64,000 bases of DNA from Chlorobium sp. (GTDB lineage: Bacteria; Bacteroidota; Chlorobiia; Chlorobiales; Chlorobiaceae): positions 1-64,000 of the forward strand of contig SZXV01000009.1 of NCBI GenBank assembly GCA_005862225.1, given 5' to 3'. Positions 1,281-6,351 of the stretch are shown piece after piece; the stretch's first letter is position 1; the number at the start of each line of letters is the position of its first letter. The position numbers and the translations under genes were made by a program. The notes beneath the pieces are model-generated. The model saw only the letters and a list, made by a program, of their open reading frames with translations, made no database searches and was not told the origin of the DNA.

Positions 1281-1500
1281 TCAGTGATGTGCAAGGGCGG
1301 GCTGCTCCGGTTTTTCAAGCCTGTTATAAGCCACGGTGATGATGATGGCGGACAACATGGCTCCTACCCCGAGTAAATACATTGAAATACAGCAGCGATG
1401 TCAGGACGATCCTGATAACTACTGTAGCGCTTGCAAAATCAGAACTCCAGAAAACAATCGGTTAGTTCGAGCTGTACCGCAGGAAAATGTGTGCAGGATA
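1281..1500 (-). pseudogene. Eroded membrane-protein gene, C-terminal remnant
   Basis: Read leftward, three short reading frames in succession encode hydrophobic transporter-like sequence interrupted by stops and frame changes. The first is around NRLFSGVLILQALQ, the second around VVIRIVLTSLLYF, and the third an open 33-codon stretch from an ATG at 1382 to a TGA at 1281 containing YLLGVGAMLSAIIITVAYNR followed by a polar tail. Together they look like the last transmembrane helices of a carrier whose frame has been broken at least twice. The position just upstream of the ars operon would suit a lost arsenic-related or other transporter, but the family cannot be told. The 33-codon frame could alternatively be a genuine small membrane peptide. 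Confidence 0.3.
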
Positions 1501-1656
1501 TGTTACCTTTCAAAAGAGACAAATTATTCAGAGTTTCAAAAATACTATTCTCTATCTTTCCTTGTTTATCTTGGATTTCAGCAAAAGTCCTTAAATATAC
1601 TGATCGTTCAAAAACTGGATTATTGAGAAATTTGTAACGCGCTTGTGAATTTCTCG

Positions 1657-1706: not shown

Positions 1707-3290
1707 ATGAGCTTTTTGCGGATAAATATCCCTAAAACAGTATACTTCAAATTGGATGGGACCGTCGCTCTGGAGACATTGCCCGAGAGCATCCAGCATT
1801 CCCTTCCCGTTGAATGGAGTCTTAAACAATGTTCCTCATTGGAGGAGCGCCGTTATTTCTACGACACGTTTCAATGGCAAGCCTTCGACAAGGAAACCGT
1901 GATTGTAAAAAAAAAGAACCTTCTTTCTCTTGTCAACCTCAATACAGGCCATGAAATTACCTCTGCACCATTCAAAGAAAATCCTGCTTCATTTTTCCCG
2001 GAAGCTCTTCCAGATTGTAAACTGAAAGAAGAGCTTTATTCATACAGCACCCTCAGGGCGTTCATAAAACTTTGCTCAATTCATGTATTCACTCGATTAT
2101 ACCAGCTCCTTGACGAAAACAAAAAGACTATAGCCACTCTCTCTTTGGAATCCTTATACCCGGCAGGAAATTCAAAAGAGAAGGCGTTAATACATTTTTT
2201 TTCTATCACTCCGAACAGAGGATATGAGAAAGCAATAGCGACTTTTGAAGGGCTCTTAAAAGAAAACAGTTTGATCGGTAAACGATTTGACTACAAAGCA
2301 CTCTTTTTATCGATTATAAATACTTCGGGGCATAACGTTGATGACTATTCACCGAAAATCCGTTTGCAGCTCGATCCGAATGCCTCTATCCATGAAAGCG
2401 CCATACGTCTGCTGAAATTTACTGTTTCTATCATGCGCAGGAATGAAGATGGCATTAGAAAAAATATAGACTCCGAATTTTTACACGATTATCGCGTTGC
2501 CATAAGACGAACCCGCTCCATTCTCAAGCAGCTTAAAGGAGTTTTTGATGCCGGAGAGACAGAATATTTTCTTAATGCCTTCAGGGATCTTGGGAAACGA
2601 ACCAATGAATTGCGTGACAGCGATGTCTATCTGCTTCGCGAAGGAACCTATTTAAACTATCTGCCTCCGTTTCTTCGGCCCTCTCTGGGACTATTTTTCA
2701 ATGAGATTGAAAATGTGCGAAGAAAAAGTCACAAACAATTCTGCTCTTACCTCTCTTCTCCCGAGTATCATTCATTTCTTCTGAAATGGGAAACATATCT
2801 TTGCAAACCGTCATATACAACATCTAAAGAGGCACCAAACGCATCTCGTGCTACCTTGAGTTTTGCGGTCGATACTCTTAAAAAAGCATGGAAAAAAGTA
2901 ATCCGCCACGGACGCCTTATCAGCAAGGAGGCAACTGATGCTGAACTTCATGGATTGCGCATTGACTGCAAAAAACTGAGGTATCTGCTTGAATTCTTTG
3001 CCTCTGTGTTTCCGGATAAAACCATTACCCCTGTTATTCAGAAACTCAAAAAGCTGCAAGAACAGCTTGGTGATGTTGTTGATTACGGCGTTCAACTTAA
3101 TTTTCTGCATCATCAGCTTACGGTAATGGCCGCAGACAAGTTACTTGCCGCCTCAACAGGAGGACTTATGGCAAGTCTTTTTCAACATCAGCAACAGGCC
3201 CGACTGAAGTTTCACAAAACCTTCTGCGCTTTTGACAATGAAGAGACAAATCAATTATTTCACGACCTTTTAACGGGCGCCGAGCTATGA
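1707..3290 (+). CDS. CHAD-domain protein with an unrecognised N-terminal half
   Basis: This 527-residue protein ends in a CHAD domain (roughly residues 225-505), an alpha-helical domain rich in conserved His, Lys and Arg that binds polyphosphate. Its signature pieces are visible: [43 protein letters not shown] and [14 protein letters not shown] often follows a CYTH triphosphatase domain. Here the first 220 residues show no clear EXEXK signature, so I leave that half unassigned. No signal peptide is seen, so it should be cytoplasmic. The stop overlaps the start of the ParA-like gene by 4 nt (ATGA), so the two are translationally coupled. This suggests a joint role, perhaps at polyphosphate granules. 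Confidence 0.8.
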
Positions 3291-4036
3291 AAACAATATC
3301 GCTTTACAGTATCAAGGGTGGGGTGGGAAAAACTGCGGCCGCAGTTAACCTCTCATATCTCTGTTCTTTGCCCTCCGCATCAACCTTGATCTGTGATCTT
3401 GATCCACAGGGAGCAAGCTCTTACTATTTCAGGATTACTGCGTCGAAAAAGTATAACAGTGAAAAATTCCTCAAAGGGAATAAAAAGATCTACCGCAATA
3501 TCAAAGCCACAGACTATCAAAACCTTGACCTTCTTCCTTCCGATTTTTCTTACCGGAACCTTGATATTGAGCTTTCTGAAGAGAAAAAACCTCAGAAAAA
3601 ACTGAAAAAAAATCTTGAAGAGCTGAATGAAAACTATCAGTTTGTGTTTTTCGACTGCCCACCAAACCTCACACTCCTTTCTGAAAGTGTTTTTGCGGCT
3701 TCTGATATAATTCTTGTACCATTGATTCCAACAACATTATCGATAAGAACATACTTTCAGTTGAGGGACTTTTTTGCCACGCAGAAACTCGATTGCTCAA
3801 AAATAATGCCGTTTTTCAGTATGGTGGAAAAACAGAAAAACCTGCACCGCGACATTATCAATGAATTCCGCCATACCTCGGAGTTGCTAACGCAAACCAT
3901 TCCCTACAATTCCGAGGTTGAAAAAATGGGTATTTACAGGGCGCCACTGAATGCCGTCCATCCAAACGCTCCTGCTTCAAAAGCTTACCATAACCTTTGG
4001 GAAGAAGTTAAAACGCATTTGGGGAGCAACTCCTGA
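3287..4036 (+). CDS. ParA/MinD-family ATPase coupled to a CHAD protein
   Basis: A 249-residue P-loop ATPase with the deviant Walker A motif KGGVGKT (residues 10-16; signature Lys10 and Lys15), Walker A' DLDPQG (37-42) and Walker B FVFFDCPP (Asp123). The family forms ATP sandwich dimers on DNA or membrane and positions plasmids, chromosomes or large cargo. No ParB gene or parS-like repeats are nearby. Instead it overlaps the upstream CHAD gene by 4 nt. I infer that it may place or segregate a polyphosphate-associated cargo carrying the CHAD protein, as McdA-type ParA relatives do for carboxysomes. A plasmid-derived Soj copy is the plain alternative, but the coupling argues against it. Confidence 0.85.
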
Positions 4037-4200: not shown

Positions 4201-5790
4201 ATGGCAAAATGGCAATGTGGGCTATGCTCGTATATCTACGATGAAAATAACGAATCCGTCGCCTGGGATGCCCTCCCGAATGAGTGGATATGCCCTGTCT
4301 GCGGCTCACCAAAATCCTCATTTACCCTGCTGACAGAAAAAGAACACGTAGCCCCGGCAGTCAAAAGCGAATCCATTAGCACAAACATCTATGAATGTGC
4401 TCTCTGCTCCTATGTCTATGATGAAGCAAAAGAGGGTACTCTGTGGCCTGCTCTTCGCAGCGACTGGAGATGCCCTGTCTGCGGCTCAGGCAAGGAGAGT
4501 TTCAGCCTTGCAGCTTCCATCCAGCCAGCCGCCGCCTCTATTGGCCCTGAAACAGATGCGGCAGAAGAGTATCTGGCGGAATGGCGACGACCGGCTGACG
4601 ATTTTGAGGTCAACATGGCCGATATCCACCGCCTGGCCATGACGGGAAAGTCGATTATCGAACCTATGCGGAGCCGCATTCCCACCTTCTCCTGGGATGA
4701 AATTCTCATTAAGGGGGCGCAGCTTGCAAAAATGCCGCTCAACAAAACACAACCGATTGTCACAAAAACGGTTATCGGGCCCGCAGCCGCCTTGCCACTT
4801 ATACTCGAAACACCGGTTTTTGTCTCCCATATCTCTTTTGGCGCCTTGTCGAGAGAAGCAAAGCTTGCTCTTGCCAAAGGCAGCGCGCAGGCTAAAACAG
4901 CCATGTGTTCCGGTGAAGGGGGCATCCTGCCCGAATCACTTGCAGCCTCATACCGTTATATTTTTGAATATGTTCCCAACAAATACAGTGTCACCGACGA
5001 AAACCTGAAGCTGGTCGATGCTGTGGAAATCAAAATCGGACAGTCCGCAAAACCGGGAATGGGGGGGCATCTTCCGGGAAGCAAGGTCACTCGTGAAATC
5101 GCGGCAATCCGGGGATGCCGGGAAGGAGAGGATATCATCAGCCCGTCGCACTTCCCCGACATCCGCTCAAAAGAGGATCTGAAAGCCACGGTCACGCATT
5201 TGCGACTGAAAACCGGCGGTAAACCGATTGGCATCAAGCTTGCTGCTGGCCATATCGAAGAAGATATTGATATAGCTCTCTATGCAGGTGTGGATTTCAT
5301 AACGATCGACGGCCGTGCAGGCGGAACCGGCGCTTCTCCTAAAGTGGTGAAAAACGCTACATCAGTGCCAACCATTTTCGCTCTGGCAAAAGCAAGAAAA
5401 ATACTTGATTCGAGAGGGGCCGATACCGTCTCCCTGATTATTACCGGCGGCCTGCGTATCTCTTCGGATTTCGCCAAGGCGCTGGCAATGGGGGCCGACG
5501 CCATAGCTGTCGGGACTGCGGCAATGATGGCGGCAGGCTGTCAGCAGTACCGTATCTGCAATACCGGCAAATGTCCCGTCGGCATCGCCACGCAGGATCC
5601 TGCACTTCGCTCCCGCCTGGATGTCGATCAATCCGCCATCCGCGTCGCAAACTTTTTCAAAGCCGTCACCGAAGAGCTTCGTGACTTTGCTCGCCTGACC
5701 GGCAATGATAATGTTCACCATCTCTCGCCCTCTGATTTATGTACCACCAATTCCGAAATTTCCAATCATACCTCAATTGAGCACGTCTAA
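4201..5790 (+). CDS. Double-rubredoxin plus glutamate-synthase-type FMN domain protein
   Basis: A 529-residue fusion. Two rubredoxin modules come first (Cys 6/9/31/34 and Cys 66/69/91/94, each CXXC-CPVCG), joined by a Ser/Ala-rich linker to a GltB-like FMN-binding barrel (about residues 150-500). The barrel carries the SHISFGALSREAK, GQSAKPGMGGHLPG and DGRAGGTGASP segments and a [3Fe-4S] motif CX5CX4C at Cys447, 453 and 458. The amidotransferase domain of full glutamate synthase is absent, as in archaeal-type GltB-like proteins. The rubredoxins presumably feed or drain electrons at the FMN/FeS core. Rubrerythrin follows 60 nt downstream, hinting at an oxygen-defence or redox role rather than bulk ammonia assimilation. 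The true reaction is unknown. Confidence 0.85.
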   Translation: MAKWQCGLCSYIYDENNESVAWDALPNEWICPVCGSPKSSFTLLTEKEHVAPAVKSESISTNIYECALCSYVYDEAKEGTLWPALRSDWRCPVCGSGKESFSLAASIQPAAASIGPETDAAEEYLAEWRRPADDFEVNMADIHRLAMTGKSIIEPMRSRIPTFSWDEILIKGAQLAKMPLNKTQPIVTKTVIGPAAALPLILETPVFVSHISFGALSREAKLALAKGSAQAKTAMCSGEGGILPESLAASYRYIFEYVPNKYSVTDENLKLVDAVEIKIGQSAKPGMGGHLPGSKVTREIAAIRGCREGEDIISPSHFPDIRSKEDLKATVTHLRLKTGGKPIGIKLAAGHIEEDIDIALYAGVDFITIDGRAGGTGASPKVVKNATSVPTIFALAKARKILDSRGADTVSLIITGGLRISSDFAKALAMGADAIAVGTAAMMAAGCQQYRICNTGKCPVGIATQDPALRSRLDVDQSAIRVANFFKAVTEELRDFARLTGNDNVHHLSPSDLCTTNSEISNHTSIEHV

Positions 5791-5850: not shown

Positions 5851-6351
5851 ATGTCAACAATGGATAATCTGCAGAACGCTTTTGCGGGAGAAAGTCAGGC
5901 AAACCGGAAATATCTCGCGTTTGCCAAAAAGGCGGAAGAAGAAGGAATGCATCAGGTAGCAAAGCTCTTTCGGGCTGCGGCTGAAGCGGAAACCGTCCAC
6001 GCCCTTGCCCACCTTCGTGTCATGGGTGGAATAAAAAGCACCGCTGAAAACCTTCAGGAAGCCATAGAGGGTGAAGAATTTGAATTTACCGAGATGTATC
6101 CCAACTATCTGGCTGAAGCACAGCAGGAAGGCAACAAACCAGCCGAATTTTCCATCAAGAATGCGCTGGCTGTTGAAGAGATCCATCACGGCCTCTACTC
6201 GAAAGCACTTGAGTCCGTAAAAGGCGGCAAAGACCTGCCTGCCGGAAAGATTTATATCTGTCCAGTCTGCGGCAACACCGTTGAGAACACGATACCGGAC
6301 ACCTGTCCAATCTGCAATGTTCCGGGAAGCAAGTTCATTGAAATCGGCTAA
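5851..6351 (+). CDS. Rubrerythrin
   Basis: A 166-residue cytoplasmic non-haem iron protein that reduces hydrogen peroxide in anaerobes. The N-terminal ferritin-like four-helix bundle shows the diiron ligand pattern (AGESQANRKY, AEAETVHALAHL, VEEIHHGLY). The C-terminal rubredoxin domain has Cys137/140 (CPVC) and Cys152/155 (CPIC). Length and order are those of classical rubrerythrin. A purine-rich stretch (AAGGAG) precedes the ATG. It probably shares a transcript with the double-rubredoxin protein upstream, a natural electron partner. Confidence 0.95.
   Translation: MSTMDNLQNAFAGESQANRKYLAFAKKAEEEGMHQVAKLFRAAAEAETVHALAHLRVMGGIKSTAENLQEAIEGEEFEFTEMYPNYLAEAQQEGNKPAEFSIKNALAVEEIHHGLYSKALESVKGGKDLPAGKIYICPVCGNTVENTIPDTCPICNVPGSKFIEIG

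Follow-up and report, generated by a model that had tools for sequence, protein, structure and literature searches.

A ParA-type ATPase encoded directly behind a CHAD protein, at positions 1707 to 4036 of the window (the whole stretch of 64,000 nucleotides of Chlorobium sp. analysed here), raises the question of what such an ATPase would act upon. The first-pass annotation had seen in the two genes a possible device for positioning polyphosphate (polyP) granules, with the CHAD protein as adaptor.

The gene pair and its ATPase

Re-reading the sequence reproduced the two open reading frames, their coordinates and strand, and their ATGA coupling as first annotated. The upstream gene (1707..3290, forward strand) encodes a protein of 527 aa belonging to the CHAD family, proposed here as the polyP adaptor of ParA. 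It matches the CHAD protein of Chlorobaculum tepidum (CtCHAD, 3e0s) with a phmmer value of 6.8e-100, and its adjacency to ParA is conserved. The CHAD domain itself lies at 2421..3107 on the forward strand (E 5.7e-53; residues 240-467 in Pfam, 3.9e-52), and the polyP contacts can be mapped onto it from CtCHAD. The CHAD stop codon overlaps the start codon of parA in the ATGA at 3287..3290 (forward strand), and parA (3287..4036, forward strand) encodes a ParA/MinD-family ATPase of 249 aa assigned to AAA_31/ParA (Pfam, 8.4e-33). Promoter and terminator scans gave no usable signal. A 96-aa reading frame with paired cysteines lies 5' of the CHAD gene (window 1336-1626); it has no family match and may not be a gene. 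At window 4201-5790, a glutamate-synthase-type FMN domain is fused with two rubredoxin domains, followed by a rubrerythrin (5851-6351).

The claim that the ATPase carries all the motifs of its family is borne out by an alignment of 85 CHAD-linked relatives. The deviant Walker A KGGVGKT with the signature Lys10, the Walker A' with Asp37 and Asp39, and the Walker B with Asp123 are invariant in these relatives, except for Val13, replaced by Ile in two. At the position of Tyr207, present in most members of the alignment, canonical ParA has an arginine, which we take to be the DNA-contact arginine of Soj. Other basic residues are conserved, namely R154, R183 (in most relatives), K184 and R218. A single-sequence AlphaFold model of this ParA was discarded (pLDDT 32.8).

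A canonical ParA followed by ParB is encoded on another contig of the same genome, and the CHAD-paired ParA branches apart from this chromosomal ParA in a quick tree in which many forks are open (the row L108 of this tree represents the wrong ParA of a contig carrying two, and its placement among the canonical ParAs is an artefact). No ParB adjoins the pair, and no parS-like site turns up in the window when as many as 3 mismatches are tolerated, in line with the first-pass annotation. The distinction between the CHAD-paired ParA and a chromosome-partition ParA is thus supported. The locus shares with ParABS (Soj/Spo0J) the ParA family and its ATPase motifs, but lacks ParB and parS, differs in the tree position of its ATPase and has an adaptor that binds polyP. 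The pair could also be regarded as a DNA partition cassette or a mobile-element remnant, in which CHAD would be an accidental neighbour or a ParB-like part, and the Paracoccus pair does reside on large plasmids. Nevertheless, we give this explanation hardly any credence and rejected it, as the ParB, parS and synteny checks were all contrary: the pairing extends to nine phyla in which replication or transfer genes are not constant neighbours. In addition, the CHAD domain retains its polyP-binding residues, and neither of two CHAD domains assayed with single-stranded DNA bound it (PMC6537752).

The N-terminal domain of ParA-linked CHAD proteins

The N-terminal 220 residues of the CHAD protein, initially left unassigned, can now be given a predicted fold. 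Residues 1-213 (1707..2345, forward strand) are predicted by AlphaFold2 and Foldseek to form a degenerate CYTH/TTM domain, which we consider the candidate ParA-contacting part. The AlphaFold2 model, built with 70 sequences, has a pLDDT of 93.8, and its confident Foldseek matches are triphosphate tunnel (CYTH) proteins, including AtTTM3, SaTTM, thiamine triphosphatases and YgiF (probability 1.00, TM mostly 0.45-0.6), with a Mediator subunit also among the matches. Pfam gave no consistent family for this domain across 70 members, the fold being recognised from structure only. Because all 72 members lack the metal-binding EXEXK motif, this is most likely, on the predicted fold, a dead enzyme domain; a D-T/S-F-D-W-R-L motif is conserved in the domain of the relatives. 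The first-pass annotation had imagined a basic ATPase-activating peptide at this N-terminus, but none is conserved, the tail preceding the first strand being short and, in most orthologues, not basic. The folded CYTH-like domain would therefore be a better candidate for activating ParA than a basic peptide. The architecture resembles that of CYTH-CHAD proteins such as YgiF of E. coli, in which a TTM fold also precedes the CHAD domain, but the class of the window has lost EXEXK, has no Pfam CYTH match and has ParA adjacent.

This domain and the neighbouring ParA go together. The test loci were collected by their CHAD domain, with the exceptions of the window itself (L001), three loci from genomes found through ParA (L134, L232 and L233) and a paralogue (L034). 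The N-terminal domain and an adjacent ParA co-occur at 29 CHAD-collected loci, and neither is present at 86. At seven loci the domain was found without adjacent ParA, three with strong matches (L024, L034 and L232) and four with weak ones, three of which were tested and are all ordinary CYTH-CHAD proteins; some ordinary CYTH-CHAD proteins do match the profile of the domain weakly (E about 1e-4). The single locus with ParA adjacent and no domain found (L025) has its N-terminus cut by the contig end. ParA is therefore adjacent at 29 of the 32 strong matches (plus the truncated L025), in contrast to none of the 90 others (Fisher p = 1.8e-20, a value that overstates the association, given the kinship among the loci and the origin of most positives in one family). 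The CYTH-like N-terminal domain marks the ParA-linked CHAD proteins, and among the CHAD-collected loci a ParA of this family is never adjacent to ordinary CHAD or CYTH-CHAD proteins.

Distribution of the pair and its polyphosphate neighbourhood

In the phylum of the window, 118 genomes were searched, 51 of which have a CHAD, and 30 CHAD loci were read over at most 1.5 kb per side, 26 of them from the family of the window (f1). ParA lies directly 3' of CHAD at 25 of these 26 loci (the paralogue L034 aside), and the pair is also present in a distant member of the phylum (G030). Within f1, identity to the window reaches 68-84% for ParA, as against 41-62% for the CHAD protein. In the exception (G094, locus L024) the CHAD gene has no adjacent ParA, which is kept on another contig, and one genome (G010) has a second CHAD gene (L034), not accompanied by ParA, in addition to its linked pair; these unlinked CHAD genes of G094 and G010 each lie directly before PPK1. 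The sole sampled f1 genome without CHAD (G067) has only a canonical ParA left. Both cases favour the pair as a unit, since G094 split the genes yet kept both and G067 lost CHAD as well as its ParA. Seven further genomes, in which CHAD is short (absent in one), have canonical ParAs only, with bit scores of about 92-107 in contrast to 376-472 for the true family. A pairing of CHAD and ParA far beyond chance is confirmed.

On a wider scale, the ParA alignment was used to screen 84,980 species genomes, which yielded at least 485 confirmed relatives, from which 80 loci were taken. Among the matches listed, a CHAD gene is present at 60 of these 80 ParA loci and at 59 immediately precedes ParA on the same strand, with a 4-nt NTGA overlap in 43 of the 59 linked pairs; at L089, CHAD is found about 4 kb downstream of ParA, inside a cluster of CYTH, PPK1 and Ppx. 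The adjacency first noticed in the window is therefore conserved in nine phyla, usually with the 4-nt overlap: Bacteroidota, Pseudomonadota, Actinomycetota, Acidobacteriota, Chloroflexota, Planctomycetota, Gemmatimonadota, Thermodesulfobacteriota and Dormiibacterota, of which single names may be wrong because many records are metagenome bins. A lack of conserved adjacency, the first ground for refutation named in the first-pass annotation, was thereby checked and did not materialise. In a sample of 150 Pseudomonadota genomes, the N-terminal domain occurs in four (the genome at the centre of the draw included), and ParA is adjacent in all four.

ParA may also stand apart from CHAD. Among 13 genomes tested in which it has no adjoining CHAD, ten carry a CHAD elsewhere, which in at least seven is of the long class with the N-terminal domain, and three carry none. 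In the quick tree, CHAD-linked members are spread across the entire ParA family, and the unlinked groups comprise many Methylococcaceae, a group neighboured by cysM- and truA-like genes, Chitinophagaceae and Mariprofundaceae. This scattering suggests, as far as the tree can be trusted, an old CHAD-ParA link that would have been lost several times, and the existence of relatives that have no CHAD neighbour means that this family of ATPases is able to work with other partners. The cysM/truA-neighboured group (L247-L254 and related loci) is well supported and carries KGGVGKTTT and DLDPQGGTSYYL. The converse arrangement is seen on a Thiodictyon plasmid (L258, 6923-8509), where a CHAD of the ParA-linked class lacks a ParA and has a pst phosphate-uptake operon in its vicinity.

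The association of CHAD with polyP, taken as known in the first-pass annotation, holds for this class: an orthologue has been crystallised with polyP, the residues through which it makes contact are conserved, and genes for polyP enzymes are repeatedly found in the neighbourhood. The protein of locus L003 is evidently the C. tepidum CHAD of PDB entries 3e0s, 6qv7 and 6qva, because the printed sequences agree and the residue numbering is identical to that published, and a ParA of the same family is encoded directly downstream of it. This orthologue, 45% identical to the window protein, binds polyP in a basic pore, and mutating its central contact residues lowers the binding, as described in the accessible portion of PMC6537752; that portion treats CtCHAD only as an isolated polyP-binding domain and leaves its ParA unmentioned. 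His260, Arg263, Arg267, Arg303, Arg425 and Tyr426 of the window protein correspond to His253, Arg256, Arg260, Arg296, Arg418 and Tyr419 of CtCHAD, and the window protein, like at least 71 of the 72 orthologues, retains the central polyP contacts.

The genomic context agrees with this. Among the matches listed, PPK1 occurs near 6 of the 80 ParA loci, PPK2 near 5, CYTH near 5 and SixA near 11, where about 0.23 would be expected per single-copy gene (a rough figure that ignores relatedness). One locus (L050) unites CYTH, PPK1, CHAD, ParA and PPK2, and Paracoccus marcusii has the order CHAD-ParA-CYTH-NUDIX-CYTH. PPK1 lies two genes upstream of the pair in C. tepidum and also upstream in a close relative of the window (G048), where an alkaline phosphatase follows directly downstream. 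The genome of the window has two PPK1 genes, one adjoining a phoU-like gene. Taken together, a polyP role of the CHAD-ParA pair is well supported. SixA-type histidine phosphatase genes are found close to the pair at L237, L238, L050 and other loci. In several green sulfur bacteria, a leucine-rich-like repeat protein (DIDCSNRGLTSLEGCPEIV...) is encoded between or beside CHAD and PPK1 (L032, 7531-8352; L034, 3478-4584; L036, 683-1876; L040, 3650-4837).

The frequent polyP-enzyme neighbours could also mean that the ATPase regulates polyP metabolism, binding the CHAD/CYTH-like protein and switching or assembling a complex of PPK1, PPK2 and CYTH phosphatase in the manner of BcsQ. BcsQ-type ATPases serve cellulose synthase, and the ParA of the window matches the BcsQ model TIGR03371, below the model's cut-off. 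The missing canonical DNA-contact arginine points in the same direction, as does a Marinobacter locus (L111, 5989-9037) where ParA and PPK1 stand tail to tail at a distance of one base, in a genome without CHAD. We consider such a regulator unlikely, given that the loss of EXEXK from the CYTH-like domain in all 72 members makes an enzyme improbable as direct partner and that ATPases of the ParA family with a complete set of motifs have, for the most part, spatial roles (PMC10241942).

A body other than polyP, or several bodies such as glycogen and polyP, might also be positioned. Among the matches listed, glycogen phosphorylase is encoded at 6 of the 80 loci (L058, L064, L075, L046, L108 and L114), mostly of Methylococcaceae, and one locus is arranged CHAD-ParA-PPK1-GlgP. 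However, the link belongs mostly to one family, three of the six loci have no CHAD gene, and CHAD binds polyP, so that we hold this explanation to be very improbable.

A candidate positioning system

We consider the chances slightly better than even that the pair is a cargo-positioning system of the ParA/MinD kind, with polyP as the cargo and the CHAD protein as the adaptor. In such a system, CHAD proteins would coat the granule, and ATP-bound ParA dimers would occupy a surface extending through the cell, for which the nucleoid is the simplest candidate. A granule-bound protein would touch ParA with its CYTH-like domain, triggering ATP hydrolysis and release, and the resulting ParA gradient could move the granules, space them or share them out before division. 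Judging from the alignment, the main doubt in this mechanism concerns the cell-wide surface that ParA would use: since the usual DNA-contact arginine is replaced by Tyr207, nucleoid binding is not assured. The Ralstonia work cited in PMC6537752 locates other CHAD proteins on polyP granules in vivo and, in Ralstonia eutropha, reports that over-expressed CHAD proteins shift the granules to the poles. The same source cites no apparent phenotype for CHAD deletions in Ralstonia or for deletion of ygiF, although these proteins may lack the N-terminal domain of the ParA-linked class. These deletions count against the positioning mechanism, together with Tyr207, the CHAD-less ParA relatives and the lack of a basic activating peptide.

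PolyP could alternatively be a signal instead of a cargo, the CHAD protein reporting the polyP or phosphate state to ParA at the nucleoid or division site and so connecting starvation to the cell cycle. The presence of PhoU and pst genes near some CHAD genes of the ParA-linked class would suit such a role, and polyP granules are tied to the nucleoid and the cell cycle in other bacteria (review PMC13052382). Nevertheless, at the loci read the pair is not constantly accompanied by parS or by a gene for chromosome partition or division, and the genome of the window has its own ParAB; we therefore find a signalling role distinctly improbable.

One of the known systems closest to the positioning mechanism proposed here is McdA-McdB, which positions carboxysomes and likewise combines a ParA-type ATPase with an adjacent non-ParB adaptor for a cargo other than DNA. 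In contrast to the small McdB, the adaptor here combines a CYTH-like and a CHAD domain, and the proposed cargo is polyP; with this adaptor the pair is not an McdAB system. In addition, the ATPase here has the signature lysine (KGGVGKT), in contrast to the McdA motif SGGQGKT (PMC9178275), and McdB has a basic N-terminal peptide (PMC12204374), whereas the CHAD orthologues have no conserved one. AlgP of Pseudomonas aeruginosa is also concerned with the placement and spacing of polyP granules, but it is a histone H1-like DNA-binding protein, and no ATPase is known in its system. A 2025 review gives AlgP as the sole entry for polyP placement and leaves the need for ATP open (PMC13052382).

The first-pass annotation was aware of no described system of this kind, which stands for the positioning role and not for the adjacency. 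In the open-access literature, the scope of which left subscription papers and preprints largely outside, no paper joins CHAD and a ParA-like ATPase in positioning. A folD-ppk-parA-CHAD cluster was reported from Acidithiobacillus in 2024, in a study of copper resistance that proposed no positioning role (PMC10892726); there, genes of the same names adjoin, also with ppk, the likeness resting on the gene names.

We regard as evenly balanced the full proposal, namely an ATP-driven positioning of polyP in at least nine phyla, with a dead CYTH/TTM domain as activator of ParA and CHAD as the polyP anchor. If true, this would be, to our knowledge, the first case known of polyP granules being placed by an energy-driven system. 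The conserved pair of a polyP binder and a ParA ATPase provides a named candidate for such a machine, open to experiment in culturable hosts that carry it, such as Chlorobaculum tepidum, Paracoccus marcusii and Methylomonas lenta, and the polyP-bound structure of its adaptor has already been solved. The pair also points to a possible task for one CHAD class, the physiological function of CHAD proteins being undefined, and for a ParA class with no known partner. The bacteria that carry it may thus have a dedicated machine for placing polyP granules or sharing them out at division.
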